Source: a virus. Taken from it: DNA of 20,181 nucleotides. The translations under genes and the position numbers were made by a program. The stretch spans positions 1 to 20,181 of IMG/VR virus record IMGVR_UViG_3300042731_002655; one strand, 5' to 3'. The stretch's first letter is position 1. Each line of letters opens with the position of its first letter. The notes under the pieces were generated by a model. The model was not told the DNA's origin and ran no database searches. It saw only the letters and a program-made list of their open reading frames with translations. Shown piece by piece: positions 2-18,455 of this stretch.

Positions 2-2521
2 GTGTGTCCCAGCGGGATCTCGACCGGTCGGGCGCAGCTCCATTTCACGGCGGAAGACGCCATTTGCACCGATTCCGGGCCGGGAGCGACCCAGCACGAC
101 TACCTGGACGCCAACTGTCAGGTCATGGACGGTTTCATCGTCCCCGGCACCGTCGAGGTGACGGCTCCCACGGCCACGGGGACCCAGACCGTTTACGATG
201 ACGGGTTCGGGGGCTGGAGAACGGCTCCGGACGGGGGTGGGCTGGCGGTGGTCGGGACCCTCAATTATCGGACCGGCGCATGGGACATTACGTTCCCTTC
301 CAGCGTCCCTGCCAACTCCCAGATCGACGCCGAATACCAGTTCGTGGTCTCCGACATGGGGTCGGGAGCCCAGGCCGGGACGGGCGGTTCCTACATCCCC
401 ACCGACGTGGTCTGCACCAACGCCACGGGCGGAGCGGCCCAGATCGACTCCGCCGACGCCAACTGCGCTCCCATCGCCACCCTCCCCGTCGTACCCAGCA
501 CGGTGCGCTTCGTGTGCTCCGACGTGGCAGGCTCGCCCGAAACCATCTACGACGACGGGGTGGGGGGTCTCTGCACCCTCCGGCGAGGCGATCCGAACTC
601 CGTGGACATCGTGGGGACCATCGACTACAGCACCGGGGCCTGGGATATTACCTGGAGCGGTCTCGTGACGGCCACGGCTACGATCACGGCCTCCTACGTG
701 GCCGTGGCGGACAGCCCCAACGTCCACGATCTGCGAGGGTCCGCCGCCAGGATGGACACCTCCGACGCCGCCACCGGGAACGACTTCCTCACGGAGAGCT
801 GGCTGAACTACGTGACCGGGGCCTTCCAGGTCAAGTTCTCCCTCTCCGCGACCAGGGATCTGGTCAACAACGCCACGGTCTACGCCGTCTACCAGCATGG
901 GGAGCTCCTGGGCTGGGGGGACGGAACGGCGGTGGCCTTCAGCGGGGACGTGGCCGACGCACCCATCCGGAGGGAGAACAACCGGGAGCTGGCGTTCCAG
1001 GGGGGTCAGCAGGCCCTTCCGGGGGCAGGCGAGGCGCAGATGGCCTTCGCCACCCTGGGGCCTCCGGACGCCTGGACCCAGAACGTGGGCGGCGGAGCCT
1101 CCGCCAACCCCATCGACTTCGCCAACGGGGACACGGCCATCCAGTGGTCGGGGGCTCCCTACAACGGTGAGGCCGTCTTCGTGGTGGTCGAAGAGGTGGT
1201 GGGTCACGTGACCTGTCAGTTCTGCGGGGACATCGGGAACGAGAGGGCCACGATCACGGACGGGATCTACGCCATCATGGACGTGTCTCCATCCGACGCC
1301 ACCAAGCTGCGGTTCCGGGTCATGTTCAACGACGGAACCGGCTCCGTGGCCGTGGAATCATGGGATCTCCTGGACGACTTCGAGGACATGGTGGACACGG
1401 TGAACGCCACGGACGGCACGGGGTCCGAACTCGTGACCATCGAGGACGCCGGGACCGGCGCGGAGCCCGATCCGGTGACCCAGAACCTGGGCATGGACGG
1501 GGCTTTCACGACCTCCGACGTGGTGGGAACCAAGGTGGGTCCGACCTACACCGGGATGCAACTGTACTCGAATCCGGACACCGTCCTGGTGGACGTGCTC
1601 ACGGCTCCGGGCCAGTGGCACCGTCAGGTCCAGGATGCCGGGATCGCCCTCTGCGAGTCCCAGGGTCGGAGAGCCCTCTGGGTTTACTCCCTGCCCGATT
1701 TCACCCCTCCGGACCAGATGAACGACGACCTTCCGGGCGTCCTGTCCACCGATTTGGCCCAGGATGCGGTGGATTTCGTCAACGGGTCCTACAACGCCGC
1801 CATCGCGGGTGGCGTGGCCCGTCCCTCCGTCAAGGTCCCCTACCCGCCCCTGGCCAGCGTGAACAGCGACTACGCCACGTGCCACGCCTTCTGGCTCAAC
1901 TACTTCGACCAGTACACCAACGAGGACGTGTGGGAGGGACCGGAGGGCGATTTCACCCAGCTCCTCGCCAAGACGGACCGGGATCAGGAGCGGTGGTTCC
2001 CCGTGGCGGGACTCAACAGGGGCCAGATCCAGGACGTGAACACGATCCGGTACAGCCCGGACGTGGCGGACAGGACCCTCATGTACAATCTCGTGGGGAA
2101 CCTCCAGAACGTGGTGAATCCCATTCGCTCGAAGGTCGGGGTGGGGATCTGGATCGACGGCCAGCGGACCATGTACCGGCAGTCCTCCGTGAGGGATCGG
2201 AACAACGTCCGGCTCCTCCTCAACCGGTTGGAGAACCTGCTGGAGATCGCCAATTTCCGGTACGAACACGAACTGAACGATCCCATCCTCTGGAGGCAGA
2301 TCGAGGCCACGGGACGCCTGATCATCCGGCCCATGATCGCCCGGAGGGGGCTGACCGACGCCAGGGTGGTGTGCGATTCGTCCACGAACACCCCGGACGT
2401 GATCGCCCAGAACAAGGCTGTGGCGAAGCTGTACATCCAGCCCACGCTGTCGGCGGAGATCATCGAGTACAACATCGTGATCGTGCCCACGGGGGTCACC
2501 TTCGAGGAGGTTTTGGCGTAA
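2..2521 (+). CDS. Contractile tail sheath protein (5' end outside window)
   Basis: Forms the contractile outer sheath around the tail tube. The reading frame is already open at the window edge, so the GTG at position 2 is probably not the true start; 839 residues are visible. The C-terminal third carries the sheath family signature: WFPVAGLNRG at about residues 665-674, then a GIWIDGQRTMYRQ stretch and a NVRLLLNRLE helix at about 713-745, followed by the usual final domain ending in a beta-strand-rich tail. The N-terminal ~300 residues are unusual: two tandem ~116-residue units plus a weaker third, each ending in a YDDGxGG...YxTGAWDIT module also found in baseplate proteins here. These are presumably surface-exposed additions to the sheath. 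The tube gene follows 45 bases downstream. Family assignment is firm; the role of the N-terminal units is inference. Confidence 0.9.
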   Translation: MCPSGISTGRAQLHFTAEDAICTDSGPGATQHDYLDANCQVMDGFIVPGTVEVTAPTATGTQTVYDDGFGGWRTAPDGGGLAVVGTLNYRTGAWDITFPSSVPANSQIDAEYQFVVSDMGSGAQAGTGGSYIPTDVVCTNATGGAAQIDSADANCAPIATLPVVPSTVRFVCSDVAGSPETIYDDGVGGLCTLRRGDPNSVDIVGTIDYSTGAWDITWSGLVTATATITASYVAVADSPNVHDLRGSAARMDTSDAATGNDFLTESWLNYVTGAFQVKFSLSATRDLVNNATVYAVYQHGELLGWGDGTAVAFSGDVADAPIRRENNRELAFQGGQQALPGAGEAQMAFATLGPPDAWTQNVGGGASANPIDFANGDTAIQWSGAPYNGEAVFVVVEEVVGHVTCQFCGDIGNERATITDGIYAIMDVSPSDATKLRFRVMFNDGTGSVAVESWDLLDDFEDMVDTVNATDGTGSELVTIEDAGTGAEPDPVTQNLGMDGAFTTSDVVGTKVGPTYTGMQLYSNPDTVLVDVLTAPGQWHRQVQDAGIALCESQGRRALWVYSLPDFTPPDQMNDDLPGVLSTDLAQDAVDFVNGSYNAAIAGGVARPSVKVPYPPLASVNSDYATCHAFWLNYFDQYTNEDVWEGPEGDFTQLLAKTDRDQERWFPVAGLNRGQIQDVNTIRYSPDVADRTLMYNLVGNLQNVVNPIRSKVGVGIWIDGQRTMYRQSSVRDRNNVRLLLNRLENLLEIANFRYEHELNDPILWRQIEATGRLIIRPMIARRGLTDARVVCDSSTNTPDVIAQNKAVAKLYIQPTLSAEIIEYNIVIVPTGVTFEEVLA
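188..337 (+). repeat. DDG module copy 1 (sheath)
   Basis: Sheath residues 63-112: TVYDDGFGG, a spacer, GTLNYRTGAWDITF, then a strand ending in AEY. It is 50 codons long, the same as the best copy in the gpJ-like protein. Confidence 0.8.
542..697 (+). repeat. DDG module copy 2 (sheath)
   Basis: Sheath residues 181-232: TIYDDGVGG, spacer, GTIDYSTGAWDITW, then a strand ending in ASY. Confidence 0.8.
785..892 (+). repeat. DDG module copy 3, degenerate (sheath)
   Basis: The DDG part is lost, but WLNYVTGAFQVKF followed by a strand ending in YAVY matches the second half of copies 1 and 2. Confidence 0.5.
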
Positions 2522-2530
2522 CAAAGACTG

Positions 2531-2548
2531 TCTGATGGAACCGTCAGA
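2531..2548 (+). promoter_or_regulatory. Intercistronic inverted repeat 1
   Basis: An 18-base near-perfect dyad, TCTGATGG-AA-CCGTCAGA, with one T-G mismatch that would be a wobble pair in RNA. It lies between the sheath stop and the tube ribosome binding site (GAGGAGG, 2551-2557). The same core recurs at 8959-8972 and 14049-14066. It could be a protein-binding operator or an mRNA stem-loop; the sequence alone cannot decide. Confidence 0.7.
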
Positions 2549-2565
2549 TTGAGGAGGATTTGCAG

Positions 2566-3099
2566 ATGGCACTGACCTACCGGTATAACGCCGACGCTTT
2601 GGCCCAGGCGCAGGGGAAGTACAATCCCCAGAAGAAAAACATGGCCATGTTGGAGCTGCACGTGGACGGGCTCGTGCCGGGAGCCCAAGAAATCCTCATG
2701 CTTTCGCTCCAATCGGTGACCATTCCGGGCTACTCCGTGGCCAGGGGGGAGATTCAATTCCTCAACGGGACGGTGTTCTATCCGTCCAGGCCGGAACCTC
2801 TCCCCGAAATGACGGTCACCTTCCGGGAGTACCACGACGTAGGAAACCGGGAGATCCTGGAAAAGCTGTTCTACAAGGTCTACGACCCCAGGACGGGGGC
2901 CATGGGAATTCCGGCGAACGTCAAGTCCCAGGCCACTCTGGTTCTCCTGCGGGAAGATGATTCGGGCGGCAGGCCCTATCTTCTGGACGGGGTGTGGCCC
3001 ATGAACGCTCCCGGCATCGAACACGACATGGGGGACGGTGAACAGATGATCCACGAGATCCGGTTCTCCGTGGACTTCATCACCGGTCGGGATCTCTAA
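2566..3099 (+). CDS. Tail tube protein (T4 gp19-like)
   Basis: Builds the inner tube through which DNA passes. At 177 residues it has the usual length for the family. It shows the expected pattern: an N-terminal strand pair, a PGYSVARGEIQF region, a central TFREYHDVGNREILEKLFYKVYD segment split by a helix, and a C-terminal WPMNAPGIEHDM...IRFSVDFI strand set resembling the end of T4 gp19-like tubes. Its position directly after the sheath supports the call. I chose ATG 2566 because GAGGAGG ends 8 bases upstream; an in-frame TTG at 2560 is too close to that site. A shared inverted repeat precedes it and a possible stem-loop spans its stop codon. Confidence 0.85.
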   Translation: MALTYRYNADALAQAQGKYNPQKKNMAMLELHVDGLVPGAQEILMLSLQSVTIPGYSVARGEIQFLNGTVFYPSRPEPLPEMTVTFREYHDVGNREILEKLFYKVYDPRTGAMGIPANVKSQATLVLLREDDSGGRPYLLDGVWPMNAPGIEHDMGDGEQMIHEIRFSVDFITGRDL

Positions 3100-3115
3100 G
3101 ATCCGGTCCGGGTGA
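3080..3115 (+). other. Possible stem-loop spanning the tube stop codon
   Basis: GGATCT (3090-3095) pairs with AGATCC (3099-3104) around a three-base loop, and outer bases CCGG/CCGG and TCAC/GTGA can extend the stem with internal mismatches. T-rich sequence follows only 15-25 bases later, so it is not a textbook terminator. It could protect or end the abundant tube message. Energy has not been computed. Confidence 0.3.
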
Positions 3116-3158
3116 TGCTATTGCGATTGCTGATTTTGATTTTTGAGGAGATTTTTTC

Positions 3159-4151
3159 ATGGGCGAGGCACAAGGAACGTCCAGACTCAAGTCATGGCAA
3201 GCACGAGACCGTCTTACAAGGCAATACAAGCTGCCCTCATGCGGGTGGCTCTACGACGATCTTCTTCCTTCCGGCATCGTGACCATGTCCTCCATCCGGG
3301 GGGAGGACGAAGAAATCATTGGCGGGGCCGGGGAGGGTGCCCAAGCCCTCCCCGTGCTTCGTGACAAGATCGAGCAACTGGTCAACTTCGGGAAACTGCC
3401 CTACAAGCGACTCCTTTTCTCCGATTGGCTGGCCACGCTGTTCAACTTCTTCGCCTTTTCCTACGGCGGGGACATGGCGGCGAATGTCAAGTGTCCCCAC
3501 TGCAAGCGGTTGCCACTCAAGCCCTACCTCCTCATGCTGGAGGGCCTTCCCTGCTACGTCTACGAAGACGATCCCACCCTCCAGAAGGAGAAGTTCAAGG
3601 AGCCCTTCCGAACTGCGGCTCTCCCGCCCTGGGATGACGTGCTCGATTTCCGCCTCCTCCGGATGCAGGACCACCTCGAAACGGAGGCGTATCACAAGAA
3701 GGGCGTGTCCATGGGGAAGGAGGGGAATTTCACCAGCTCCTATGCCATGGCCAAGCATATCGTGGCTATCAACGATGAGGAGGTCAGCACGTTCGAGGCC
3801 CTGGATTGGGTCCGGAACGCCACCACGGGCAAGACCACAAGGGCCTTTCGGGAGGAGATCAGCCTCCGGGAGCCGGGGTATTCCTTGAATTTCGAGGTGA
3901 ATTGCAGTTGGCGCGACTGCGGGGCTCCCTTCAGCATCCGTATGCCGGAGGACGGCTCCTTTTTTCGTCAATCGGATTCCTACACTCGAAAGTTTAAGAG
4001 GCCAACGGTTCTCGTTGATGAATCCGAACCAGGGGGGTCTGAGCTACCGGGATTGGGCGGCGATGACTCCCTGGCAGAGACAGGACTACGTGATTCGGAT
4101 GAATCAGTATCAAAGGAAGAAGGAGGCGGAGGAGAGGCAGCGAAGGAATAG
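3159..4151 (+). CDS. T4-family baseplate hub assembly chaperone-like protein
   Basis: Likely an assembly factor for the tail or baseplate. The opening LPSCGWLYDDLLPSG...V.M.S.RG, the following KIEQLVNF...LLFSDWLATLFNFFAFSYGGDM and the zinc-ribbon cysteines (C112-x-x-C115 in CPHC, C249-x4-C254 in NCSWRDCG) fit the T4 baseplate assembly chaperone family (gp26-type, Pfam T4_baseplate). It lies between tube and tape measure, where other tailed phages encode frameshifted tail assembly chaperones. The ribosome binding site GAGGAG (3146) is well placed for ATG 3159. The last 37 codons are acidic and low-complexity with poor codon choice (15 of 37 end in G/C), because another frame there seems to be the selected one. 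Family is moderately sure, exact role less so. Confidence 0.7.
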   Translation: MGEAQGTSRLKSWQARDRLTRQYKLPSCGWLYDDLLPSGIVTMSSIRGEDEEIIGGAGEGAQALPVLRDKIEQLVNFGKLPYKRLLFSDWLATLFNFFAFSYGGDMAANVKCPHCKRLPLKPYLLMLEGLPCYVYEDDPTLQKEKFKEPFRTAALPPWDDVLDFRLLRMQDHLETEAYHKKGVSMGKEGNFTSSYAMAKHIVAINDEEVSTFEALDWVRNATTGKTTRAFREEISLREPGYSLNFEVNCSWRDCGAPFSIRMPEDGSFFRQSDSYTRKFKRPTVLVDESEPGGSELPGLGGDDSLAETGLRDSDESVSKEEGGGGEAAKE

Positions 4152-4158
4152 GCGGTAG
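4018..4158 (+). CDS. Overlapping alternative-frame C-terminus of the chaperone (frameshift product or small ORF)
   Basis: Lies inside the 3' end of the chaperone gene in the +1 (= -2) frame and ends just before the tape measure start. From ATG 4018 it would give 46 residues; the convincing part begins after GGT at 4036 (LSYRDWAAMTPWQRQDY, then a strongly basic QRKKEAEERQRRNRR end). Of the 39 codons after that point 30 end in G or C, as in real genes here, against 15 of 37 in the chaperone frame. The frame is open back to 3889, so it could be reached by frameshifting rather than by its own start; no good ribosome binding site precedes ATG 4018 (AAGAGG is 16 bases away). A shifted product would be about 332-333 residues, nearly the same length as the unshifted 330. 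Expression is inferred, not shown. Confidence 0.6.
   Translation: MNPNQGGLSYRDWAAMTPWQRQDYVIRMNQYQRKKEAEERQRRNRR
4032..4037 (+). promoter_or_regulatory. Candidate frameshift site (six G)
   Basis: A run GGGGGG falls exactly on two in-frame glycine codons of the chaperone (GGG GGG TCT). A -2 slip or a +1 slip here enters the well-formed overlapping frame. From memory, phage Mu uses a -2 shift on a G-rich run in its tail assembly genes. No stimulatory structure was established. Confidence 0.45.
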
Positions 4159-4160
4159 AA

Positions 4161-5981
4161 ATGGCTGATAGGTCGAACGTGGAAAGATTCGCCTACATTT
4201 ACGACATCGTAGATGAAGGCGTTCACAAGGCCATCAAGAAGACGGATGACGCCATCGACACCTTTGTGACCGTCACAACGAAGGGCCTGACGACCGTCTT
4301 CAACCTGACCCAGCAGACCATCAGTGGCTTCCTCAAGTTCAGCAGCAAGAAGGTGCTGAACTCCTTCAAGGCCGTTTTGTTCCCCATCCAGGAGATCCGG
4401 GACGGCGTGAGCGGGGCCAGGAAAGCGGCCAAGGGGCTGGTCGAGAAGATGGCCCAGGGAGCCAAGAGTACCTTCCAGTTCGAGAACCGGCTGTCGGGGA
4501 TCTTCGGGATTCTGAAGACCATAGCGAAAATAGGAGGGTTAGGGGTCCTCCTTGGACCATTTATCATCCTGATTAAGCCGTTCCTACAACTGGTGTCTGT
4601 AATTACGGACACTCTCCAGCCTGCGCTGGACACCATCACGGAGACTTTGAAAGGTGCCTTCGCCCCAGTTGCAGCGGCACTACATCGGTTGTCTCTCAAA
4701 CTCCTGCCTCACCTCATGCGGGTGATCGCTCCCATCGTGGTCTTCATGGTCAGGGCTGTAGAGGAGATCGGTAAGTTCTTCGAGGAGGGTCATTTCGAGG
4801 GGATGCTGGGCATCTTCGATGAGCTGGTACCCCTTATTGATGAAATGATCGACTCCTTCATCCGGGACTTCCTCAAGCCCGTGGGAGGGGTTCTTTTCCG
4901 GACGGTGATTAAACTGTTCCAGAGCCTCGTGAAATTCGCCGTTGAGTTCGTCAAGACCGTGGCTCCCTATATGCCCAGGTTCTTCAACATCCTCCAGAAG
5001 GTGGCTAACCTGATAATCACAACCCTTGGGGACGCTCTGGATAATCTGTTGCTGGAGATGACGAAACAGCTCCCGAATCTTGTGCCCCTAATTATCAAAA
5101 TGCTCAACACCTTCGAGGCCATGATCCCGCACTTGGAGAAGCTTCTGCCCCTGTTCACGGAGCTCATCGTAACGGTCCTGGCCAAGGTGCTCACCCCAGC
5201 GGGAATCGCCATCCTGGACGCCATGCTCAATTTACTTCTCAAGATCCTCCAACACACGGAGCCCCTGATAGACGACATGGCCTTTCTCCTGGAACAGTTC
5301 AACAAGTGGCTGTCGGAGAACAGTGCCAGCGTGGACGAATGGTCGGAAGGTCTCAAGATCCTGGGTGAGATCATCGTGGAATGGTTCAAAGACGCGAAGG
5401 TGGCGGCGGAGGAACTGGTCCGTATCGTGGGGGAGTGGATTGAAGATCTGAAAGAAGTCCTCAAGTTCCTGGGTCTGATCGAAGACAAGACCGCAGAACA
5501 GGAGAAACGGGACAAGGCCCATTGGGATGCGGCTCAGGGCGATCTCGCCGGTCTCAGAAAACGGGAAGAACTGGCTCTCCAAAACGCAGTCAAGGAGTTC
5601 CAAAGGGCCGGAAAGTCGGAAGCGTTCATTAAGGCTTTCGAGTCCAGGAGAAAGGCGGAGATCGAGTTCTTCCTGGTTCAACAGGCCGCACGGATAGCCG
5701 CTCGCCAAGAGGGTGGCCATATCGTCAAGCCGGAGCTTGCCGTGGTGGGTGAGGCGGGGCCTGAGTGGATCGTGCCGGACACGCCGGAAGGACTCATGGA
5801 GTACCTGCCCCAGATGGTCAGGAGTGTTATGAAGAAGGGTCCGATGGGAGCCGTGGGGCCTGCTGCGGTCGGGGCCGGGGCGAATGAACTGTTGGCGGAA
5901 ATCCTGGAAATCCTCAAGCGGATTGCTGAGATGATGGCTGAAAACGAGGGTGACGAATTCGGCTTGCCGGAGGTGCTGTAA
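4161..5981 (+). CDS. Tape measure protein
   Basis: Sets tail length and occupies the tube lumen before DNA ejection. The 606 residues are almost entirely predicted helix. A hydrophobic stretch rich in G, L and I lies at about residues 112-145, long amphipathic helices follow, a highly charged helix covers about 465-515, and the C-terminus has the motif GGHIVKPELAVVGEAGPE at about 517-534, typical of tape measure C-termini. At the usual ~0.15 nm per residue the tail would be roughly 90 nm, if the full protein counts. It starts 2 bases after the overlapping frame's stop and has only a weak ribosome binding site, so translation may depend on the upstream chaperone. Its stop overlaps the next start (TAATG). 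Confidence 0.9.
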   Translation: MADRSNVERFAYIYDIVDEGVHKAIKKTDDAIDTFVTVTTKGLTTVFNLTQQTISGFLKFSSKKVLNSFKAVLFPIQEIRDGVSGARKAAKGLVEKMAQGAKSTFQFENRLSGIFGILKTIAKIGGLGVLLGPFIILIKPFLQLVSVITDTLQPALDTITETLKGAFAPVAAALHRLSLKLLPHLMRVIAPIVVFMVRAVEEIGKFFEEGHFEGMLGIFDELVPLIDEMIDSFIRDFLKPVGGVLFRTVIKLFQSLVKFAVEFVKTVAPYMPRFFNILQKVANLIITTLGDALDNLLLEMTKQLPNLVPLIIKMLNTFEAMIPHLEKLLPLFTELIVTVLAKVLTPAGIAILDAMLNLLLKILQHTEPLIDDMAFLLEQFNKWLSENSASVDEWSEGLKILGEIIVEWFKDAKVAAEELVRIVGEWIEDLKEVLKFLGLIEDKTAEQEKRDKAHWDAAQGDLAGLRKREELALQNAVKEFQRAGKSEAFIKAFESRRKAEIEFFLVQQAARIAARQEGGHIVKPELAVVGEAGPEWIVPDTPEGLMEYLPQMVRSVMKKGPMGAVGPAAVGAGANELLAEILEILKRIAEMMAENEGDEFGLPEVL

Positions 5982-6652
5982 TGCCCACGCTATCCCAATT
6001 CTACGTGCCCTGCGCCATCGTCTTGAAAGATAACCCCAGGGAGAAGGTTCGGTTTGAGTCCTTCCCGTGGGATGAGGGCATCACGGAGGGGTACAACGCG
6101 GATTGGGCCAAGTCCGGAGGTCGAGCTGCTGCACCTTTCATGCGGCGGTGGACGGGAGGGGATTTCAACCCCATCAGCATCTCCCTGGAGTTTCACGCCG
6201 GGATGAACCCTCTGGAGATCGGCTCGCCCACGGCGGTGGCCATCGGGCGCATGATGAACAAGGTGAACTGGCTCAAGGCGTCCGCTTTCCCCAGGCCAAA
6301 GAAAGAGGGAGGTAATCCAGCGGCATCTTTAGCCGGTCTGTCTCCTTTTGGTATGGGGGTGGGACTCTCGACCGCTGGCCTGATCCAACAGCTCCAAGGT
6401 CAAACGGCGGACCCACCCAGGGTCCTCTTCGTGTGGGGTCTATTTATGATCCTGGAAGGGGTCATCACGGCTTGGACGGTCCAGTGGAAGGGACCCTACG
6501 AGGTCATTTCCGGGAAGCCTCACGGGGCTCTCGTGTCCCTCACGTTCCAGCCCCACACCGGGACCTATCCCAACTGGTACACCATCAAGCGGGGCTCGAT
6601 CCCCGGCGGAATACTGGGTCGTGCGGCCCAGACTGTGGGGAAAGTGATCTGA
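5981..6652 (+). CDS. Tube/hub adaptor, contractile injection system tube-protein family
   Basis: Probably joins the tail tube to the baseplate hub. The 223 residues show an N-terminal beta region with FNPISISLEFHAGMNP, a variable Gly/Pro/Ser-rich middle (about 105-140), and PPRVLFVWGLFMILEGVITAWTVQWKGPYEVISGKPHGALVSLTFQP spread over about 145-190. The pattern PPxVxFxWG, then a strand, then G-x-P-x-x-A-x-V-x-L-x-F is typical of the CIS tube-protein N-terminal domain found in Afp/PVC-type particles and many phages. There is no LysM domain inside this protein, but the next gene looks like one, as if the common two-domain form were split. ATG overlaps the tape measure stop; its own stop overlaps the next start (TGATG). 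Confidence 0.6.
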   Translation: MPTLSQFYVPCAIVLKDNPREKVRFESFPWDEGITEGYNADWAKSGGRAAAPFMRRWTGGDFNPISISLEFHAGMNPLEIGSPTAVAIGRMMNKVNWLKASAFPRPKKEGGNPAASLAGLSPFGMGVGLSTAGLIQQLQGQTADPPRVLFVWGLFMILEGVITAWTVQWKGPYEVISGKPHGALVSLTFQPHTGTYPNWYTIKRGSIPGGILGRAAQTVGKVI

Positions 6653-6984
6653 TGGCTGACTTCGAGCTGGATCTGCCTTTCAATTCGCCCATGAAGAGGA
6701 CAACCCTCCTCCAGAGCGGAGGGAACGTCTTTTTTAGTGTTTGGAAGCCCCCTCAGATCCTTCTGGACGGCCAGGAGAAGAAGGTTCGTACCTCAGAGAG
6801 GGACCAGGGGACGTTGGACTTCATCGCGGAGGAGGAGTTGGGAACCAGGGAACTGGCGTGGGCAATCGCCCAGGTGAACCAGATCTATCATGTTCCAAGG
6901 GACGTGGTTCCCAAGATGGTTGTGACGATTCCGCACCTCGTGAACGTACTCAACGCCTTGCAGGACGAATCTGGTGACCGATAG
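6652..6984 (+). CDS. Small baseplate protein, gp53/LysM-like
   Basis: A 110-residue protein starting at the ATG inside TGATG; the frame is open further upstream, but that part overlaps the previous gene. Residues about 45-100 read D-x-x-T-x-D-x-I-A...G...L-A-W-A-I-A-x-V-N-x-I...P...V-P...V-T-I-P, the pattern of LysM-like modules in T4 gp53 and P2 gpX-type tail proteins. Such proteins stabilise the hub or wedge interface in the virion. The placement between the CIS tube-type adaptor and the gp27-like hub fits. No catalytic residues are evident. The fold call rests on pattern only. Confidence 0.55.
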   Translation: MADFELDLPFNSPMKRTTLLQSGGNVFFSVWKPPQILLDGQEKKVRTSERDQGTLDFIAEEELGTRELAWAIAQVNQIYHVPRDVVPKMVVTIPHLVNVLNALQDESGDR

Positions 6985-8173
6985 CGCATCAATCTGGCTC
7001 CAGGATGGCGCGAACGTGGTGGACATCACTCCTGTGGTGAGCCGGTTCGTCTACAAGAGTTCCCTGATCAAAGGGTACGTTCAGTGGCGTATGAAGTTTC
7101 GGGTTTTCAACTGGGACTTCTGGAAGAATTTTATGATCGGGAACAGTCTCCGGTTCGCTGTAAAGATCCGTGACGAATGGAATGGGCGGTCCAGGGAGAC
7201 TAATTGGCTTCCTCTCGTGGTGGATCTTTCCGGCAGCGATCTTCAGAGTACCCGGATCGACGCCAATGTGACGGGGGGCGGAACCGAACTCCTGATGATG
7301 AACGAGGAGAAGCGGCGATCCTTCCCCAGGATGACGGCTTCCCAGGTAATCCAACGGGTCGCTACGGACTACGTTCTCAAACCGAACATCCGGGCGTCAA
7401 CGGCTACGAAGACGTGGTATCAGTCCAATCAGACTGATTGGGACCTCCTCCAGGAAGTGCTCACGGATTACGTGGCCTTTGACGGACGGGGGGACAGTTT
7501 CTTGAATATCGAGGGGACCAATCTCATCGTCCAGGCCATCAACTATGCGGCTCCTGTAAAGAGGTTTTACGACCTTACCGCTCCCAACCGGCACAAGCGG
7601 GTTCCAAAGGTGAGTGTTCGATATTATGGGGGACAGGTAGCCAGGAAAGGTGGCCTTATCGTGGAAGCGCGGGGCTTCGACCGATCCACGGGTCTCCCGG
7701 TGACATTTACGGCCAACCCCATCGTGGACAACGTGGCGGCTCTCAAGGAGAAGCTACCCAAGAAAATTACGGCGGCGAAGCGGGTGGTGATCACGGGTCG
7801 GTCGGATCTTCGATTCGTCCGGGCCAGGGCTCTCCGGGAACAGGCCAAGTACAGCATCCGGTACTACGGAGTGGCGATCAAAGTTCTGGGGGAGCTTCAG
7901 ATTAAACTGAGAGACATGATTTCTATCTCCGTCAAGGATAGTGATGGGAAAGGTTCCCCCAACGAAGGTAAATACGGGGTCTTCGAGTACACCATCGACT
8001 ACGCCCTGGGTCGTACCCAGACCACCGTGGTGGGGTACCGGCGAGAGGCTTCAGTGGGTCCTGCAACGTCCGTGGGAACTCCGGCTATGCAGCCGGTGGG
8101 AACCGACACGGACCTGTCGTCTGGCACCCCTCAGCGGGTGACAGTGAAAACGTCCGTACCTTTGGGATCGTGA
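6974..8173 (+). CDS. Baseplate hub protein (T4 gp27 / P2 gpD-like)
   Basis: Forms the ring linking tail tube and central spike. The 399 residues open with two beta-rich segments (VSRFVYKSSLIKGYVQWRM region), then TASQVIQRVATDYVL at about 122-136 and the family hallmark YQSNQTDWDLLQEVL at about 148-162, followed by further barrel strands. A Pro/Thr/Ser-rich tail of about 35 residues ends the protein. It starts at GTG 6974, overlapping the previous gene by 11 bases, with AGGA eight bases upstream. The spike gene follows with a TGATG overlap, the usual hub-spike pairing. Confidence 0.8.
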   Translation: MTDSASIWLQDGANVVDITPVVSRFVYKSSLIKGYVQWRMKFRVFNWDFWKNFMIGNSLRFAVKIRDEWNGRSRETNWLPLVVDLSGSDLQSTRIDANVTGGGTELLMMNEEKRRSFPRMTASQVIQRVATDYVLKPNIRASTATKTWYQSNQTDWDLLQEVLTDYVAFDGRGDSFLNIEGTNLIVQAINYAAPVKRFYDLTAPNRHKRVPKVSVRYYGGQVARKGGLIVEARGFDRSTGLPVTFTANPIVDNVAALKEKLPKKITAAKRVVITGRSDLRFVRARALREQAKYSIRYYGVAIKVLGELQIKLRDMISISVKDSDGKGSPNEGKYGVFEYTIDYALGRTQTTVVGYRREASVGPATSVGTPAMQPVGTDTDLSSGTPQRVTVKTSVPLGS

Positions 8174-8961
8174 TGAAAGAAACCTACGCAGGCATCTGGG
8201 ACGGCATTGTGGTGAGCGTAGACGCTCCCTCGACGGAGCCTGTGGGGGCCGTCCAGGTTCGGATTCCCCATATTCATGGGGACGTTACGGAAGTTCCAGA
8301 CACAGACCTTCCATGGGCGGAGCCCAATTTTCAGTTCGCTGGCCTGGGGTCTGGGATTGTGGGGGTGCCCCCGGAGAACGCCCAGGTGAACATTATCTTC
8401 CGGTACGGGGATAAGGATTACCCCACTTACATCGGGGGGTCTTTCCGGACGGCGGGGGCTCCTGCGGCCTATACAGCGGGGAAACAGGGTTTGACGCCGA
8501 AGACGTGGTTGTGGGTGACGCCTGGGGGCTTCGGCATTATTTTCGATGAGCTTAACAAGAAGGTTACGCTTCGGACCTCCCAGGCCACGTTGTTCTCTCT
8601 GGAGTTGGACGAAACTACTCAGAAAATCACTGCAACTACGCCGACCGGCTATAAACTGGAGCTGGATGAGGCTACTAAAAAAGCCACCTTTCAAACGGCG
8701 GCAGGCAATAGCGTGGTCTTGGACGAAACGGTAGGAGAGGCCACGATTACGGCTACGGCTAAGGTGATTTTGTCTACCCTCCTGGCGGAGATCGGTGTTC
8801 CGGCAACGCAGTCGGTTCTGGTAGCAGAGTTGTTTGCTCCGGTGTACGATGCCCATACGCACAACGTGACCGGAGTGGGAGCTCCCACGGGGCCTCCCAT
8901 TCCGCTTTTGACACCTTCCCTGGCGTCTGTGATCTCGCAAATTCTGAAACTCAAGAACTGA
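8173..8961 (+). CDS. Baseplate central spike (gp5/gpV-like) with beta-helix and HxH tip
   Basis: Membrane-piercing spike at the tail tip. Residues about 5-90 form an OB-fold with DLPWAEPNF, PPENAQVNIIF and GDKDYPTYIGG, typical of phage base V/gp5 proteins. Residues about 115-200 are short repeats (FDELNKKVTL, LELDETTQKI, LELDEATKKATF, VLDETVGEATI) that fit a triple-stranded beta-helix. Near the end DAHTHNVTG carries H228-x-H230, matching the metal-binding tip of P2 gpV-type spikes; a trimer would place six His around one ion. There is no lysozyme domain, unlike T4 gp5. ATG 8173 overlaps the hub stop (GTG 8170 is also in frame). Its stop codon lies inside a shared palindrome. Confidence 0.85.
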   Translation: MKETYAGIWDGIVVSVDAPSTEPVGAVQVRIPHIHGDVTEVPDTDLPWAEPNFQFAGLGSGIVGVPPENAQVNIIFRYGDKDYPTYIGGSFRTAGAPAAYTAGKQGLTPKTWLWVTPGGFGIIFDELNKKVTLRTSQATLFSLELDETTQKITATTPTGYKLELDEATKKATFQTAAGNSVVLDETVGEATITATAKVILSTLLAEIGVPATQSVLVAELFAPVYDAHTHNVTGVGAPTGPPIPLLTPSLASVISQILKLKN

Positions 8962-8972
8962 CGGTACCGTCA
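8959..8972 (+). promoter_or_regulatory. Intercistronic inverted repeat 2 (perfect palindrome)
   Basis: TGACGGTACCGTCA is a perfect 14-base palindrome whose first three bases are the spike stop codon. It shares the TGAyGG-nn-CCGTCA core with 2531-2548 and 14049-14066. Confidence 0.7.
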
Positions 8973-8984
8973 ATGGAACCAGTA

Positions 8985-9359
8985 ATGGCATATCCCTTTA
9001 CGGGGCCTGGAGTTGGAGGGGTCTTCGAGCCCAAGAGCGTACATGAGGTGTACGTGACCTCGCTTCGGAACATCCTGACGACGCCCAAGGGAAGCGTCCG
9101 TTACAACACCAACCGGGGGTCAATGCTCCCCCTTTTCGTTTTCGATCTGAATGATGATATTGAGAAGCAACTGATTCAGTTTTACGCTCTGACGGACATT
9201 CAAGAACAGGAACCCAGACTCATCATTGTGGCTCTGGAAGCGGATTTCGATGCGGAGGAGCACAAGGTTGGGTTCACGGTGACTTTCGTTGAGGTGGATG
9301 ACCCAGATCAGGTCGAGCGGCAGGCGTCCATTAAGGACATAAGTCTGAGGAGAATCTGA
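8985..9359 (+). CDS. Baseplate wedge protein (T4 gp25 / P2 gpW-like)
   Basis: A nucleating wedge component that contacts the sheath at the baseplate. The 124-residue protein contains LRNILTTPKGSVRYNTNRGSMLPLFVFD and, about 35 residues later, EQEPRLII, the EPR motif conserved in the gp25/gpW family. There are two in-frame starts, ATG 8973 and ATG 8985. I prefer 8985: the other two palindromes end 16-17 bases before their start codons, and 8985 gives a comparable 12 bases plus a GGAA at 8975-8978, whereas 8973 directly abuts the palindrome with no ribosome binding site. The stop overlaps the gpJ-like start (TGATG). Confidence 0.8.
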   Translation: MAYPFTGPGVGGVFEPKSVHEVYVTSLRNILTTPKGSVRYNTNRGSMLPLFVFDLNDDIEKQLIQFYALTDIQEQEPRLIIVALEADFDAEEHKVGFTVTFVEVDDPDQVERQASIKDISLRRI

Positions 9360-12316
9360 TGCCTCAGATTCCGACACAACAGTACACGGCACGGGACTAC
9401 CAGAGCACCATGGATGCCTTGGTGACCCATCTCCGGGCCAAGTTTCCGGACGGAAACTGGGAGAAGATGCTCGACCAGGACGTGCCTCTGGCCATGCTCT
9501 CCTCTCTGGCTTGGATGCACGAACAGGACGCCTTCTACATGAACCGCAGGTGGCTGAATACCTACCTGTCGGAGGCGGACGACCGGGAGCCCGTGATCTT
9601 CCTGACCAAGCAACTGGGCTACCGGATGCGGCCCAGGACGGCGGCTTCCGTGGCGGTCCGGGCGGTTCCGCAGCCTACTAAGGCAGTCCAGATTGTGATC
9701 CCGGCGGGAACCAAGGTGCCCTACGAGGACACTTTTTTCGAGTTCCTGGAAGACGCCACGGTTCCGGCCTTCGCTTCTTCGTGGCCGGATGAGACCTCGA
9801 CGGAGGTCATCGTCGTGACGGAGGGGGAGTCGAAGGAGATTACCTTCGAGTCGGACGGCCAGCCCTGGCAGGAGTTCGAGGTCCCCTTCGAGAACGTGAT
9901 CGAGGGGAGTGTGGTGGTCACGGTGGCCGGAAGTGCGTGGGAGGAGGTTTCCTCTCTGATCTACGTCGAGGGAGATACGCTGGGTCGGGACATCGCTTCT
10001 GGGGACGGTACGGACAGCCAAACGGTGGTTCTGAGCCTCCTCAACGCTATCATTGAGGAGGACAACGCCGACCGGCTGACGGTCCTTGTGGATGGAGTCG
10101 AGTGGGCCTACGTTTCGGCTTTCACGGGAGGTCCCCAGGAATTCCTTGCATCCCAGGCCGCAGACGGGACGACTACCGTCACTTTCGGGCTCAGCACGGA
10201 CGGATCGGCCCCCGTGAACGGGGCCGTCGTTGATATTCTTTATCTCATTTCTGGTGCTCAGAGGCGGTACTCTCTCCGGTATAACCAGGACGATCAGCCC
10301 ACTATTTCCTTCGGGGATGACGAAACCGGTAAAATCCCTCCCATTGGAGCTCAGATCGTGGTTTCCTGTCGGGTTGGGGGAGGGGTGGTTGGGAACATTG
10401 GAATAGGGGATCTGGACACCACGGTGACCGGATTTTTGAACGAGGCTCCTGCCGTTGGGGAGGTGAGTGAGAGTACCGAAGTCCGGATTTTTAACTACTC
10501 CAGGGGTACGGGAGGCAATCCAAGAGAGGCCATCGACAGGGCCAAGCAACTTGCGCCCTCCTTCGCCAAGGCCAACCAGAGGGCGGTAACTATGGGGGAT
10601 TGGGAGACCATCGCGGCCTCTTATTATGATCCTCGCTACGGGGCTCCGGCTCATGCTGCGGCCAAGATCCACCAGGAGGTCCCGGAATCCAACCTGATCG
10701 ACGTGTCGCTCTGGAGTCGGGATTCGGACGGGCGGCTCGCTGCGGCTGGGGAATCTCTCAAGGTGGCCGTGGCCAACCTTCTCAACTCCAAGAGGACGAT
10801 ATGTACTTATCTCCAGATGGTGGATGGGGTTACCTACTACTTCGACGTAGCCCTGGCGGTAAGCCTCAAACAGGGCTTTTTTACAACTACGGTCTTCTCG
10901 AACCTCCAGGCGGCGGTGATCAACTTCTTCGATTCGGCCCTCGTACTGCCGGGGCGTGACATCCGGATCAACGAGCTCTACCGGCGGCTCAATGCCGTGG
11001 AAGGGGTTTACTCCGTTACAATCGAATCCATCATCGGGACTGTCCAGGAGGAGCAAAATACCACGGCGGATGGGGCTTCCCAGACCTACGAGTTCCTGTT
11101 CTCGAACCCCATCGGCCAGGAGATCGTGCCCACCTCATTCCAGGTGGTGGCCGGGACCCAGACCATCTCCGATGACGGAACAGGAGGCATGACGGGGGAC
11201 ATCGACAGCTCCCTGACCAACTCTATCGAGTATGACACGGGGCGGGTGACGGTGTCTTTCAACGCCATCCCGGTGATTGGGGAGAACATTCGGGCGGAAG
11301 CTCGATACTACGCCAAACTGGAATGGGAGGAGGACAAGTCGGCGGATTTCGCTGGTCTCGCTGCGCTGGATGAAGTGGCTGAATACTTTCCGATCATCAA
11401 GCGGCCCCCCATGGGGGTTTCCAGGGGCGTAACTCTTGATTTCTACCTTCCAACCTACCTGTTGCCCATCGTTCCAGGCCGATGTTTTTTCATCACAGGC
11501 TACGGGGGCACTATCGCGGGAGGAACCGGGGTCGAGAAGAACGCCTACGACGACGGAGATGGGAACATTGTGGGGGACGTGGACCCCACGGGGGTGAACA
11601 CCATCGACTACCGGACGGGTCGGGTCCAGTTGACCTGGGACACCTCCGTTCACCCCATCTTCCCCTTCAGCGGAGGCCAGAACAGCGTCCTGGCCACGCT
11701 CAGCCCAAATGCGGACGGTGTGGAAACGGATTTCACCTTCTCCTGGGCTCTTCCCGGCTGGTGGGTGCTCCCCAGCTACGCCGGGAGCCTCAACCTTGAC
11801 TTCTCCGGCTTCCCCTCGTGGGGCGCAGAGGCTCAGATCTACGACAATTTCCAGACTCAGCTTTGGGGCACCTATTTGGACAACCGTGGGGACAGCGTGA
11901 TCAACGAAACGGCCAGGACGGGGACCCTTCATTTCTCCGTCCCTCCTCAGAGCCCAGGAGCTCCTCCCCACCAGTTCTCCCTTTGGGTGAGACAGGTCAC
12001 CCAGGTGATCTACTCTTCATTCGTCTTCTCCGTGAAAGATCCGGTGTCTCCGGGACACGACAGCTACCTTTTCGCGGACAATACTGGAAAACTCTGGGGG
12101 ACCACCCCGGACTCTTATCCCACGAGTCGGCTGGATCATCGGACAGGCCATATCATCGCAAGGCTGTCCTCGCCCATCGTGGCCGGAAGGACGACGAAGC
12201 TTTCTTATGACGCCTTCCTTCGGTCGAAGTCGAGGAACATCCCCATCGTAGGAGGGGCTATCGGTACCTTTTCCCAGACCACGATCCGGGAGCTTGAGGA
12301 AGAAATCGACTTGTAG
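9359..12316 (+). CDS. Baseplate J-like protein (gp6/gpJ) with extended C-terminus
   Basis: Main wedge protein forming the baseplate ring. Residues 1-575 look like a complete J protein: N-terminal helices (WEKMLDQDVPLAMLSSLAWMHEQ...FMNRRWLNTYLSEA type), VIPAGTKV, a beta core with ISFGDDETGKIPPIGAQIVVS and GGGVVGNIGIGDL, then GGNPREAIDRAKQLAPSF at about 384-401 and RAVTMGDWETIA. Phage J proteins usually end soon after the INELYRRLNAVEGVYSVTI-type region, here about residue 560. The remaining ~400 residues (to 985) are beta-rich and contain four copies of the module shared with the sheath (about 602-651, 728-780, 825-880, 902-950), ending in a short linker and a helical tail. The extension probably projects from the baseplate; whether it binds host or fibres is unknown. 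Confidence 0.85.
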   Translation: MPQIPTQQYTARDYQSTMDALVTHLRAKFPDGNWEKMLDQDVPLAMLSSLAWMHEQDAFYMNRRWLNTYLSEADDREPVIFLTKQLGYRMRPRTAASVAVRAVPQPTKAVQIVIPAGTKVPYEDTFFEFLEDATVPAFASSWPDETSTEVIVVTEGESKEITFESDGQPWQEFEVPFENVIEGSVVVTVAGSAWEEVSSLIYVEGDTLGRDIASGDGTDSQTVVLSLLNAIIEEDNADRLTVLVDGVEWAYVSAFTGGPQEFLASQAADGTTTVTFGLSTDGSAPVNGAVVDILYLISGAQRRYSLRYNQDDQPTISFGDDETGKIPPIGAQIVVSCRVGGGVVGNIGIGDLDTTVTGFLNEAPAVGEVSESTEVRIFNYSRGTGGNPREAIDRAKQLAPSFAKANQRAVTMGDWETIAASYYDPRYGAPAHAAAKIHQEVPESNLIDVSLWSRDSDGRLAAAGESLKVAVANLLNSKRTICTYLQMVDGVTYYFDVALAVSLKQGFFTTTVFSNLQAAVINFFDSALVLPGRDIRINELYRRLNAVEGVYSVTIESIIGTVQEEQNTTADGASQTYEFLFSNPIGQEIVPTSFQVVAGTQTISDDGTGGMTGDIDSSLTNSIEYDTGRVTVSFNAIPVIGENIRAEARYYAKLEWEEDKSADFAGLAALDEVAEYFPIIKRPPMGVSRGVTLDFYLPTYLLPIVPGRCFFITGYGGTIAGGTGVEKNAYDDGDGNIVGDVDPTGVNTIDYRTGRVQLTWDTSVHPIFPFSGGQNSVLATLSPNADGVETDFTFSWALPGWWVLPSYAGSLNLDFSGFPSWGAEAQIYDNFQTQLWGTYLDNRGDSVINETARTGTLHFSVPPQSPGAPPHQFSLWVRQVTQVIYSSFVFSVKDPVSPGHDSYLFADNTGKLWGTTPDSYPTSRLDHRTGHIIARLSSPIVAGRTTKLSYDAFLRSKSRNIPIVGGAIGTFSQTTIRELEEEIDL
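11162..11311 (+). repeat. DDG module copy 4 (gpJ-like)
   Basis: TISDDGTGGMTGDI, spacer, SIEYDTGRVTVSF, ending in EARYY; 50 codons, like copy 1. Confidence 0.8.
11540..11703 (+). repeat. DDG module copy 5 (gpJ-like)
   Basis: NAYDDGDGNIVGDVDP, then NTIDYRTGRVQLTW. The N-terminal half is the clearest of all copies; the final strand is less certain. Confidence 0.75.
11831..12000 (+). repeat. DDG module copy 6, degenerate (gpJ-like)
   Basis: QIYDNF...WGTYLDN...VINETARTGTLHFSV keeps the YD, G, TG and final F positions but has lost DDG. Confidence 0.4.
12062..12208 (+). repeat. DDG module copy 7, diverged (gpJ-like)
   Basis: SYLFADNTGKLWG, then SRLDHRTGHIIARL, ending in KLSYD; spacing matches copies 1 and 4. 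Confidence 0.6.
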
Positions 12317-12327
12317 GAACCGGACAA

Positions 12328-13563
12328 ATGGCGAACCCGAACAACTGGCTAACTAAAAGGGACACCCTTCGGACGGGGAGGCTGAGGCCGGATTTCTACA
12401 ACATTCTGCTGCCGGAGATCATCGAGGAGGACCAAAAAGGCGGCACGTTCGCCTTCCTGGACACCTACGACGATCCGGAGGCCGAAATCAACGCCTGGGA
12501 CCAGACAGCCCCTTTCCAGGCCGTCTGGGACCGGACAGGCATCCTCCCGGTACTCCAGAGGCTGTTCTGGGTCCTGGAGGAGCAACACGGGAATATGCTC
12601 GTGGAACTGGATGACATGGAGGTGCTGACGGACCCGGATCAGTGTCCCGTCGAGTTCCTGCCCCGGATGGCGGCTTCCCTGGGGTACGACATGGAGGACG
12701 GTCTGTCGGAGAAGGAACAGCGGGAGCTGATTAAGGGGCTCATGGACGCCTTCCATCACCATGGGACGCCGATTTCGTGGACTGTTTTCTACCGGATGCT
12801 GGGTTACCGGATCATCGCCTATCCTCTCTGGAAGAAGGAGCTGGCGGAGGACCAGGACCGTTACGACCGGGACCGGTACGTTACGACTACTCCCTTCGGA
12901 CCGTGGGTGCTCCCTGGCGCGTTCACGGGGTCCCTCACCCAGGCCCCGCTCCGACCCAGGAGCATCGTTATCCTGGACGCCGGAGGAGAGACCTTTCGGG
13001 ATGACGGCAAGGGGAACCTTCTTGGAAGCAAGGGCGGAACGGGGACGATCAACTATCTGATCGGGACCATCAATCTCAGCTTTGCTCCGCCGGGACCTAC
13101 TGCGCCCATCCTTCTGTGGGCGGAAACGGTCAACGAGGAATACCCATACCATGCGGCTCGTGTGGATCTGGATTTCTTCCTGATCCCCATCGGGGGCGGG
13201 ACTCCTCCTGTCGTGGATGATGAGTTTGTCAAGAAGGTACTCTGGTACCTGGAAGAGGTGCGGCCCATCCACGTCCTGATTCGGACCTTCAACCTCATCA
13301 TGGAGATGGAAGATGATGGTCCGGACGTGACGGACGGGAACTGTTGTGGGCCGGATCTGGGGGTGGATTACTGGGACGCTTTGCAAGATTGGTACATCGG
13401 GGACGTGGGTCCTTTCGGGAAGGACGGGGGTCTCCATATCAGCCGCAGCGACGGTCAGGAACAGGAACACCTGGAGGACGTGACCCCGTTCATACATCCT
13501 TTAGCTGGTGACCCGCTTGTGATAACATCGAGTCCAACTCAGCCTTTTGACGGCTGGTATTAG
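12328..13563 (+). CDS. Tail protein I-like baseplate protein (gpI)
   Basis: Baseplate periphery protein that normally links the J ring to tail fibres. Residues about 106-150 contain CPVEFLPRMAASLGYD, then LSEKEQRELIKGLMDAFHHHGTPISWTVFYRMLGYR, the core of the P2 gpI family. The C-terminal ...YLEEVRPIHVLIR (about residues 308-323) is also typical. At 411 residues it is longer than usual gpI proteins (about 180-250): one DDG module is inserted at about 222-266, between core and C-terminal segment, and about 90 residues with a CC pair (NCCGPDLG) and a Pro/Ser end follow. AGGA overlaps the gpJ-like stop nine bases before ATG. Confidence 0.75.
   Translation: MANPNNWLTKRDTLRTGRLRPDFYNILLPEIIEEDQKGGTFAFLDTYDDPEAEINAWDQTAPFQAVWDRTGILPVLQRLFWVLEEQHGNMLVELDDMEVLTDPDQCPVEFLPRMAASLGYDMEDGLSEKEQRELIKGLMDAFHHHGTPISWTVFYRMLGYRIIAYPLWKKELAEDQDRYDRDRYVTTTPFGPWVLPGAFTGSLTQAPLRPRSIVILDAGGETFRDDGKGNLLGSKGGTGTINYLIGTINLSFAPPGPTAPILLWAETVNEEYPYHAARVDLDFFLIPIGGGTPPVVDDEFVKKVLWYLEEVRPIHVLIRTFNLIMEMEDDGPDVTDGNCCGPDLGVDYWDALQDWYIGDVGPFGKDGGLHISRSDGQEQEHLEDVTPFIHPLAGDPLVITSSPTQPFDGWY
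12991..13125 (+). repeat. DDG module copy 8 (gpI-like)
   Basis: TFRDDGKGNLLGSKG, then GTINYLIGTINLSF, ending in LLWAE. It sits as an insertion within the gpI-type sequence. Confidence 0.75.
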
Positions 13564-16883: not shown

Positions 16884-18455
16884 ATGGCATTGTCCCGAAT
16901 CAAAGAACGCCAGCTCGCCCTGAGCGCAGGGCTCGTGGGGTTCAAGCCCCAGCCCAGATCTCCGGAAGATGACCGGATCGAGGTCCAAGGAGGGTGGTAT
17001 GACGACGTGGGGGAGAACACCATCGCCCTCCAGAGTCTCCAGACCACGGGTATCTTCGCTCCGGTCCTGGCGGGCCAGGGTCGGTGGGATCTGGTTTACA
17101 TTGACAACACAGGCACGGTGGGTGTCGAAGCTGGCGTGGCCCAGGTGCTTCCCGTTCCCGCCTACACCGGGGCTCCTGGGATCGCCGGACCCACCACGGC
17201 TCCGAACATGATCCCCATCGCCTACGTCTACGTGGACGAAACCGTGACGGTGATCGTGGACGAATACGACATCACTGACCTTCGGGATTGGTTCGGGAAA
17301 TACACCCGTGGGGTGGTGGGGAATCTGGCCTCCGACGACGGGACCGGGGCCGGGGGTATCCTGGGCACGATCTGGTCCGCGATCCCGGCGGATCACCGGC
17401 ACCCTCCGAACGTGGATGCGGTCAATCCGGCCCAGGTTTTGGGGGTCCTTGGAGGGGAGAATCCAGGCGTTTCGGACATATACGCAAGGAGGGACCATCA
17501 GCACGAGCTGGCCGTAGGTGCGGCAGCAGTGGCCTCTCCCTACAGTAAGTCCGTGACCTGTCTCTGGGCTCCGGACGACAACACGGGAGGCGCGAATCCG
17601 GGTGTAAAGAAATGGAACTTGCACCACTTCCAGGGAATGGCGGACAACAATTCTGCCTTCTATTTCAACCTCCCCAGAGCCTCGAAGCTCCTGCTGACCA
17701 TCTTCCCGGTGGACGGCGGGGGCACGGGAAACAATATCGGCCCAGGGGGAGCCGACGACACCGATCCGGTTGCTGCGGCGGTTACCAACTCCTTCCTGTA
17801 CGTCTACATCATCGGTCAGACCGGGACGCCAGGGGTTTACTCCATCGTTTACTCGACAAACGCACCTACCACCGGACCGGGACTGACCGACCCCGCCTTC
17901 GGGGGTACCTACGACACCTGGAGATGGGTGACCTGCATCGAAATGTCGTTGACGGCCCAGCTTCCCGTTGCGGCCCGGAAGATCGGGAACATCGTGATCA
18001 AGGAGTGGTACACGGGGACACCTACGTCTGGGGTGAATCGGGCTCAACATACGGAAGACATCTGGTGGAACGTCCCTTTCCCTGGGGCTGTGGTCAGCCT
18101 TGCCGAACACGTTTCCCCCATGGCCATCGCCGTTTTTATCAACTGGTGGGTCAAGATCGACGGAGGAGGGGCACCAGGGTCCATCACCCTGGAGCTGACG
18201 ACGGCCCCAAATACCCCTCTGGGTTCCCAGGACACACCGGACGCTCTTTTATACGACTACAACAAGCTCGTTATCCAAACCTCAGAGGCAGCAGACGTGC
18301 AGCCAAAGTACAACAACGACGGTCTCTGGATGCCTGTGAATAACGCTCGACAAATCTTCGTCCAAGTGGGTATCACGGGGATCGGGGAGGCCGGAGGCGT
18401 CGTTGTGGCCTACGAGGAGCATAACCTGGACGACATTACCAACATCGTCTGGTAG
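16884..18455 (+). CDS. Tail fibre-type protein, paralogue B
   Basis: A 523-residue paralogue of the protein at 14958-16562, matching it from GRWDLVYIDNTG (about 68) to the end (GLWMPVNNARQI, VVAYEEHN). The second HxH motif falls at the same residue numbers (H205/H207, RRDHQHEL); the first is H171/H173 (DHRHPPNVDA). The segments around EHVSP, CIEMS and VYSTN are nearly unchanged, while the N-terminal ~60 residues and loop regions differ, as expected for fibres with different targets or positions. AAGGA lies 8 bases before ATG and overlaps the upstream stop. Confidence 0.65.
   Translation: MALSRIKERQLALSAGLVGFKPQPRSPEDDRIEVQGGWYDDVGENTIALQSLQTTGIFAPVLAGQGRWDLVYIDNTGTVGVEAGVAQVLPVPAYTGAPGIAGPTTAPNMIPIAYVYVDETVTVIVDEYDITDLRDWFGKYTRGVVGNLASDDGTGAGGILGTIWSAIPADHRHPPNVDAVNPAQVLGVLGGENPGVSDIYARRDHQHELAVGAAAVASPYSKSVTCLWAPDDNTGGANPGVKKWNLHHFQGMADNNSAFYFNLPRASKLLLTIFPVDGGGTGNNIGPGGADDTDPVAAAVTNSFLYVYIIGQTGTPGVYSIVYSTNAPTTGPGLTDPAFGGTYDTWRWVTCIEMSLTAQLPVAARKIGNIVIKEWYTGTPTSGVNRAQHTEDIWWNVPFPGAVVSLAEHVSPMAIAVFINWWVKIDGGGAPGSITLELTTAPNTPLGSQDTPDALLYDYNKLVIQTSEAADVQPKYNNDGLWMPVNNARQIFVQVGITGIGEAGGVVVAYEEHNLDDITNIVW

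Follow-up and report, generated by a model that had tools for sequence, protein, structure and literature searches.

Immunoglobulin-like (Ig-like) domains are reportedly spread among phage structural proteins, as Fraser et al. are said to have described in 2006. Additional Ig-like domains of sheaths, the I-domains of capsids and promiscuous Ig-like domains have all been published. In particular, the I-domain of the P1 capsid protein Gp23 is described, in the part of the structural report available to us, as being like those of T4, N4 and phiKZ, as protruding outward and as touching the P-domain of the next capsomer (PMC12810830), and domains II and I of the T4 sheath protein gp18 (residues 88-345) are exposed to solution, with domain I protruding (PMC3004832, available sections). 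Here, we describe a beta module that recurs in three tail proteins, namely a tail sheath protein, a baseplate J-like (gpJ-like) protein and a P2 gpI-like protein, encoded by IMG/VR record IMGVR_UViG_3300042731_002655, a linear fragment of 20,181 bases that was analyzed whole (hereafter, the window). This module is homologous to the I-domain of Gp23-type major capsid proteins, typified by P1 Gp23.

With the P1 Gp23 I-domain (PDB 9ukm; PMC12810830, as far as the available text goes) the module shares sequence, fold and insertion into a virion structural protein; however, the P1 I-domain is present as one copy in the capsid, whereas the window modules lie in sheath, gpJ and gpI, with several each in sheath and gpJ. 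The Ig-like domains of phage structural proteins, and the extra ones of sheaths (Evseev et al. 2022, PMC9230969), resemble the module in being beta sandwiches, common to unrelated virion proteins and added to the sheath surface, but the module has a motif of its own and matches no Ig family of Pfam at E 0.001.

Module copies in the window

The first-pass annotation had assigned eight copies of a ~50-residue module to the three carriers. These copies were searched with a profile from a 103-sequence module alignment (A3) and, in order to avoid circularity, with a capsid-only profile built from 69 module seeds of the capsid-protein cluster of other phages, the window and its relative L006 being excluded. 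The carriers, which are genuine genes, and the modules, in open reading frames (ORFs) of the plus strand, are the following:

2..2521, +, tail sheath protein (PHROG tail sheath, 1.4e-40); 5' end cut off by the left end of the record; carries modules 1, 2, 3 and a further one
122..355, +, module copy 1 (sheath), canonical; ORF residues 41-118; E 2.1e-15 (A3 profile), 1.7e-9 (capsid-only profile)
470..709, +, module copy 2 (sheath), canonical; ORF residues 157-236; E 3.2e-13 (A3), 9.2e-9 (capsid-only)
698..922, +, module copy 3 (sheath), probably degenerate; hhalign P 3.5e-4, probability 37%; no significant hit in profile searches
890..1216, +, further degenerate module (sheath), absent from the first-pass annotation; hhalign P 6.5e-6, probability 85%, 73 columns
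9359..12316, +, baseplate J-like (wedge) protein (phrog_219, baseplate wedge, 2.2e-29; TIGR02243, 7.7e-20)
11069..11323, +, module copy 4 (gpJ), canonical; ORF residues 579-663; E 3.9e-16 (A3), 6.2e-12 (capsid-only); AlphaFold2 model with a predicted local distance difference test score (pLDDT) of 90.3
11441..11716, +, module copy 5 (gpJ), canonical; core 11528-11650; E 9.3e-9 (A3), 3.4e-7 (capsid-only)
11774..12034, +, module copy 6 (gpJ), probably degenerate; hhalign P 7.3e-4, probability 26%
12005..12238, +, module copy 7 (gpJ), probably degenerate; hhalign P 4e-4, probability 35%
12328..13563, +, P2 gpI-like tail protein (PF09684, Tail_P2_I, 7.6e-7, residues 96-171)
12919..13158, +, module copy 8 (gpI), canonical; ORF residues 208-268; E 1.5e-16 (A3), 1.9e-12 (capsid-only)

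When run on all window ORFs, the capsid-only profile retrieved five of the eight claimed copies, distributed over three proteins, with E values between 1.9e-12 and 3.4e-7; among the controls, 9,476 reversed ORFs had a best score of 0.073, and shuffled window ORFs gave nothing. The claimed stretches at 188-337, 542-697, 11162-11311, 11540-11703 and 12991-13125 are thereby strongly confirmed, and those at 785-892, 11831-12000 and 12062-12208 are only probable. Alignment of all eight showed the full DDGxG...TIDYxTG-like pattern in five, and the latter three had no DDGxG. The stretch at 785-892 was not significant by profile search (E 2.7 with the capsid-only profile, 4.2 with a 142-seed profile described below), and copies 6 and 7 of gpJ were not listed in the capsid-only search. 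The weak copies and their orthologs were also compared, as small alignments, with A3 by hhalign, where the best P among 52 control segments taken elsewhere in these proteins was 0.024. Since this null is far weaker than the P values of copies 3, 6 and 7, these are probable, rather than proven, degenerate copies. One more module was detected upstream in the sheath N-terminus of the relatives L005 and L006 (hhalign P 3.2e-5), in a part that lies beyond the record end in the window.

Chance or convergence, by which glycine- and aspartate-rich beta turns would merely look alike, could draw on the shortness of the motif and on the weakness of three of the eight copies. Nevertheless, it is very improbable: the reversed and shuffled controls and the 52-segment null speak against it, the sequence match agrees with an independent structure match to P1 Gp23, and for the five canonical copies it is already contradicted.

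Homology to the P1 capsid I-domain

A search of the PDB with the module profile matched P1 Gp23 at residues 225-305 with an E of 6.5e-8, the next match being at 0.63. We take residues 212-312 of P1 Gp23 as its I-domain on the basis of the inserted beta-rich part, these limits not coming from the available text of PMC12810830. An AlphaFold2 model of gpJ copy 4 (88 residues, 103-row alignment, pLDDT 90.3) showed seven strands, and on this model the unit spans ~80-88 residues instead of the ~50 originally proposed, with an added strand before 'PxxP' and a last 'A-x-Y' strand. In a VIA-align comparison with the PDB, the P1 head protein was the best match to this model (Z 6.4), followed mostly by antibody V domains (4.4-5.5), although a Z under 8 for an isolated module can reflect the common sandwich arrangement. 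Among viral models, a tail sheath ranked best (E 8.7e-4, TMq 0.81), with a pair of major capsid proteins and a subunit of the baseplate wedge next. Foldseek gave no PDB match for the single module at E ≤0.001; P1 was at rank 5 with E 0.37, yet with the highest listed probability (0.97).

Because the alignment behind the copy 4 model contained capsid rows, its capsid match is partly circular, and a gpJ-only model (m83121e5605c0) of the whole gpJ C-terminus was therefore made from eight gpJ sequences and zero capsid sequences. Its best match was again P1 Gp23 (residues 197-305, Z 8.7, root-mean-square deviation 3.3, 94 residues), with the next at Z 5.7; this match covers copy 4 only, and the quality of the model falls from good at copy 4 to fair at copy 5 and poor farther on (mean pLDDT 57). 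On these models, the fold shared with the P1 I-domain is shown for copy 4 and, by strand order, likely for copy 5. The gpJ-only model also had weak fold matches to 9vzk_T (P1 baseplate) and 9f4b_FA (baseplate of a Klebsiella phage KP1 variant), at Z 5.0 and 5.1, respectively; perhaps the same domain has already been solved in baseplates.

With regard to sequence families, the 103 modules had no match to an Ig family of Pfam at E ≤0.001, the best being Big_8 in three members (0.0016) and Big_3_5 in three (best 0.058). The claim that the module is distinct from phage Ig-like domains is thus borne out for Pfam sequence families; as to the fold, it may resemble an Ig-like beta sandwich. PF09343 (DUF2460) matched 17 of the 103 modules weakly, at E up to 1 (best 6.4e-4), and, at E up to 0.001, four of the 75 proteins in the capsid cluster; these weak DUF2460 matches raise the possibility that the domain reaches further tail proteins. 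The module is contained in phrog_6128, a family of 1200-residue phage proteins which five of the eight window copies matched at E up to 10 (best 1.7e-4); this is, however, a whole-protein family and not a domain model, and in Pfam we found no domain model of the module itself. The richest single carrier was a 1208-residue protein (L129:5833-9456), a full-length phrog_6128 member with five module copies. Across the 103-sequence alignment, D33, G35, G37, Y53 and G56 were invariant, and these may be turn and core residues.

Carriers in other phages

A tblastn search of named phages with copy 4 alone gave no match, while copy 8 matched 23 named phage records, many of them annotated as major capsid protein (best E 2e-4 to 5e-4). 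When gpI was used as the query for related loci, six stretches matched and none was confirmed. Two motif patterns retrieved 69 and at least 120 stretches from IMG/VR (at least 189 together), and as both demand the motif, degenerate copies are missed. The pattern loci include near-identical contigs and one phage twice; the counts exclude L076, which is the contig of L002, and L001, which belongs to the window. With a profile from 142 non-redundant seeds, at least 315 domains in at least 223 ORFs were found at E 0.01 or better. The pattern with at least 120 matches among 2.9 million viral contigs hit just 12 stretches in a genome collection of 84,980 species, and seven of these 12 carriers matched phage carriers already found.

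Carrier classes were defined as single-linkage clusters of the ORFs with modules masked, which yielded 27 groups, the largest having 75, 49, 20, 19, 14 and 11 members among the matches listed; since near-identical contigs and a phage present twice are included, these sizes are not counts of independent lineages. In the 75-member cluster, 66 proteins matched PF07068 (Gp23 major capsid protein) and nine were unconfirmed by the family scan; in the 49-member cluster, 45 matched PHROG tail sheath and four were unconfirmed. The 11-member cluster includes the window gpJ and a representative matching baseplate wedge families, gpI-like carriers numbered three among the matches listed, and single cluster representatives matched head-decoration and head structural families. 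The module, at first regarded as one of tail proteins, does occur in sheath, gpJ and gpI but is not peculiar to them, being most often an insertion in Gp23-type capsid proteins (66 of the 75 proteins in the largest carrier cluster). Its position outside the conserved family core is similarly true of sheath, gpJ and gpI; in capsid proteins it lies within the span of the Gp23 profile. In gpJ, the four copies are placed between the core and a conserved C-terminal tail (alignment A9), and in gpI the single module is C-terminal to the Tail_P2_I core.

Eight loci (L157, L175, L148, L136, L117, L103, L012 and L167) each carry two carrier ORFs close together, one of ~360 residues and one longer. Representatives of both ORF types had no family match except through the module; possibly, they are structural proteins of another phage group.

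Insertion site in the sheath

Sheath residues 619-837 of the window match the C-terminus of T4 gp18. When ten sheaths were aligned, the modules proved to be inserted behind residue 94 of T4 gp18, falling at T4 residues 94-162, and the sheaths of Bacillus phage SP-15 and of QdP_Psa3 (494 and 512 residues) are without the insert. Judged by this alignment, the sheath modules occupy the insertion site of the solvent-exposed domains I and II of T4 gp18, which upholds the predicted surface exposure for the sheath copies. The module is like these domains in its point of insertion into the sheath core, on the exposed tail surface; on the other hand, domain I of gp18 is a six-stranded barrel with a helix, in the T4 account as available to us, and the module has no detectable sequence similarity to gp18.

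Relatives and evolutionary history

One comparison covered 23 records, all of them chosen for carrying the module. The sheaths of L006 and L005 are 67% and 66% identical to that of the window, and the gpJ of L002 is 64% identical; these three relatives keep modules at the same sites as the window. All window copies lie in sheath, gpJ and gpI, and no capsid gene was recognized among the window genes; L006 carries a module also in its Gp23-type capsid protein, and so does G012. The latter, a 116-kb virus record whose gpJ, gpI and sheath are 45.5%, 45% and 38% identical to those of the window, has nine copies in six proteins (three in the sheath, two in gpJ, and one each in gpI, the capsid protein and two unassigned proteins), which supports the view that one homologous beta domain occurs in proteins of unrelated fold within one virion. 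Similarly, the eight copies of G008 are spread over capsid, sheath, gpJ-like and other proteins. The copy number varies between relatives. In gpJ, two modules precede the conserved C-terminal tail in L042, L022, L052 and L070 vs. four in the window and L002, degenerate ones counted. In the sheath, the number ranges from none detected in SP-15 and QdP_Psa3, whose single detectable copy is in the capsid protein, to three in G012.

This variation bears on neutral accretion, in which tandem, insertion-tolerant beta domains would pile up in loops without a selected function. The differing sheath copy number fits it, as does the range from canonical to degenerate copies inside one protein. However, canonical copies have one and the same motif whether they lie in a capsid, a sheath or a baseplate protein (D, G, G, Y and G do not vary in 103 sequences), and L002, L005, L006 and the window have preserved orthologous copies at identical sites, so that we consider such accretion quite unlikely.

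A FastTree tree was computed for the 182 modules left after removal of those with a likeness above 0.8 or with insufficient coverage of the profile. Modules whose nearest neighbor has a carrier of their own class numbered 56 of 59 for capsid, 35 of 46 for sheath, 11 of 13 for gpJ and 2 of 5 for gpI. For the 123 modules of these four classes, the minimum number of carrier changes was 16, a rough figure given that 36 of 180 branches have a support of 90 or more, compared with a mean of 51.6 and a least value of 43 in 500 shuffles. The same-class neighbors and the few carrier changes point to inheritance mostly in place: the spread is mostly old, with moves between carriers repeated but not frequent. 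Most modules of the window clade are closest to the same-site module of a sister phage and not to a copy in their own genome. The original notion of a mobile module spreading within one virion holds in terms of mobility, and the spread itself is mostly old. Against a simple in-place picture stand the three sheath modules and the gpI module of G012, whose nearest neighbors are in other carrier types. The clearest single carrier change was seen for the module of a capsid-cluster protein (L066:7702-9327, labeled from its cluster), which groups with the sheath modules of L180 and L184 at a support of 92.

The window as a whole is a contractile-tail gene cluster with sheath, tube-like, tape-measure-like, hub-like, gpV, gp25-like, gpJ-like and gpI-like genes, followed by downstream genes; the tube, tape-measure and gp25 genes, without a family hit, are presumably such from their position. 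Two adjacent downstream proteins (14958-16562 and 16884-18455) have the same single G012 protein as their best match (35% and 38% identity); the pair probably arose when a tail-fibre-like gene of the window phage was duplicated in tandem.

Possible function of the module

We propose that a homologue of the P1 I-domain has been reused in tail proteins, most likely as an outward-facing brace (probability roughly 0.6, by analogy with the P1 capsid). The module is a seven-strand beta-sandwich of ~80 residues, the same domain being built into the tail sheath, baseplate J-like and gpI-like proteins of this phage lineage. The insertion sites lead us to expect that its first strand is adjacent to its last, which would allow insertion in a loop of the host protein without disturbing the core. 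It would face outward and make extra contacts to neighboring subunits or accessory proteins, and these contacts would brace head, sheath and baseplate in the way that capsomers are braced by the I-domain in P1. For gpJ and gpI, the outward orientation is likewise proposed, as is the bracing or attachment role.

Several points weigh against this proposal. The bracing role goes back to one capsid structure, and domain I of T4 gp18 binds the baseplate and the long tail fibres and makes no inter-subunit contacts, according to the available sections of PMC3004832; an attachment point for other virion parts is, for that reason, a serious form of the same idea. T4 gp18, gp23 and gp24 had no match to the module profile (E 0.084 or more, gp18 best 0.09; three-sequence search), so the link to the T4 domains is positional and not sequence-based. 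To these are added the low Z of the isolated module and the uneven quality of the gpJ-only model.

Adhesive decoration is a possible, less likely alternative: Ig-like modules would weakly bind sugars or host-surface features along head, sheath and baseplate and would have spread via better adsorption. The fold shows some likeness to Ig V domains, the gpJ model also resembles collagen-binding and pilin domains, many copies on outer surfaces fit avidity, and adhesion was proposed for the extra Ig-like sheath domains by Evseev et al. 2022 (PMC9230969, available portion). However, a function does not follow from a similar fold, the invariant positions include no obvious conserved candidate for a binding site, and the closest solved relative works between capsomers, as far as PMC12810830 is available to us.

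Beyond the bracing proposal, it is conceivable, although doubtful, that the module forms a common coat, one domain over nearly the whole outer surface (head shell, sheath and baseplate) and not separate decorations. If so, every virion part could be engaged by a single partner, be it a decoration protein in solution, a glycan of the host or contacts of one module with another.

Significance

The module is a new sequence family of a known kind, that of promiscuous Ig-like phage surface domains, and in searches of open-licence PMC papers we found none linking sheath, baseplate and capsid I-domains as one family. Annotators gain a usable profile, and the module accounts for the short cross-matches that searches give between sheath, baseplate and capsid proteins. 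G012, with its nine copies in six proteins, offers a testable case of domain reuse inside one virion. The P1-type capsid I-domain and the extra beta domains of long sheaths, which had been observed separately, are joined here in one sequence family that reaches baseplate proteins.

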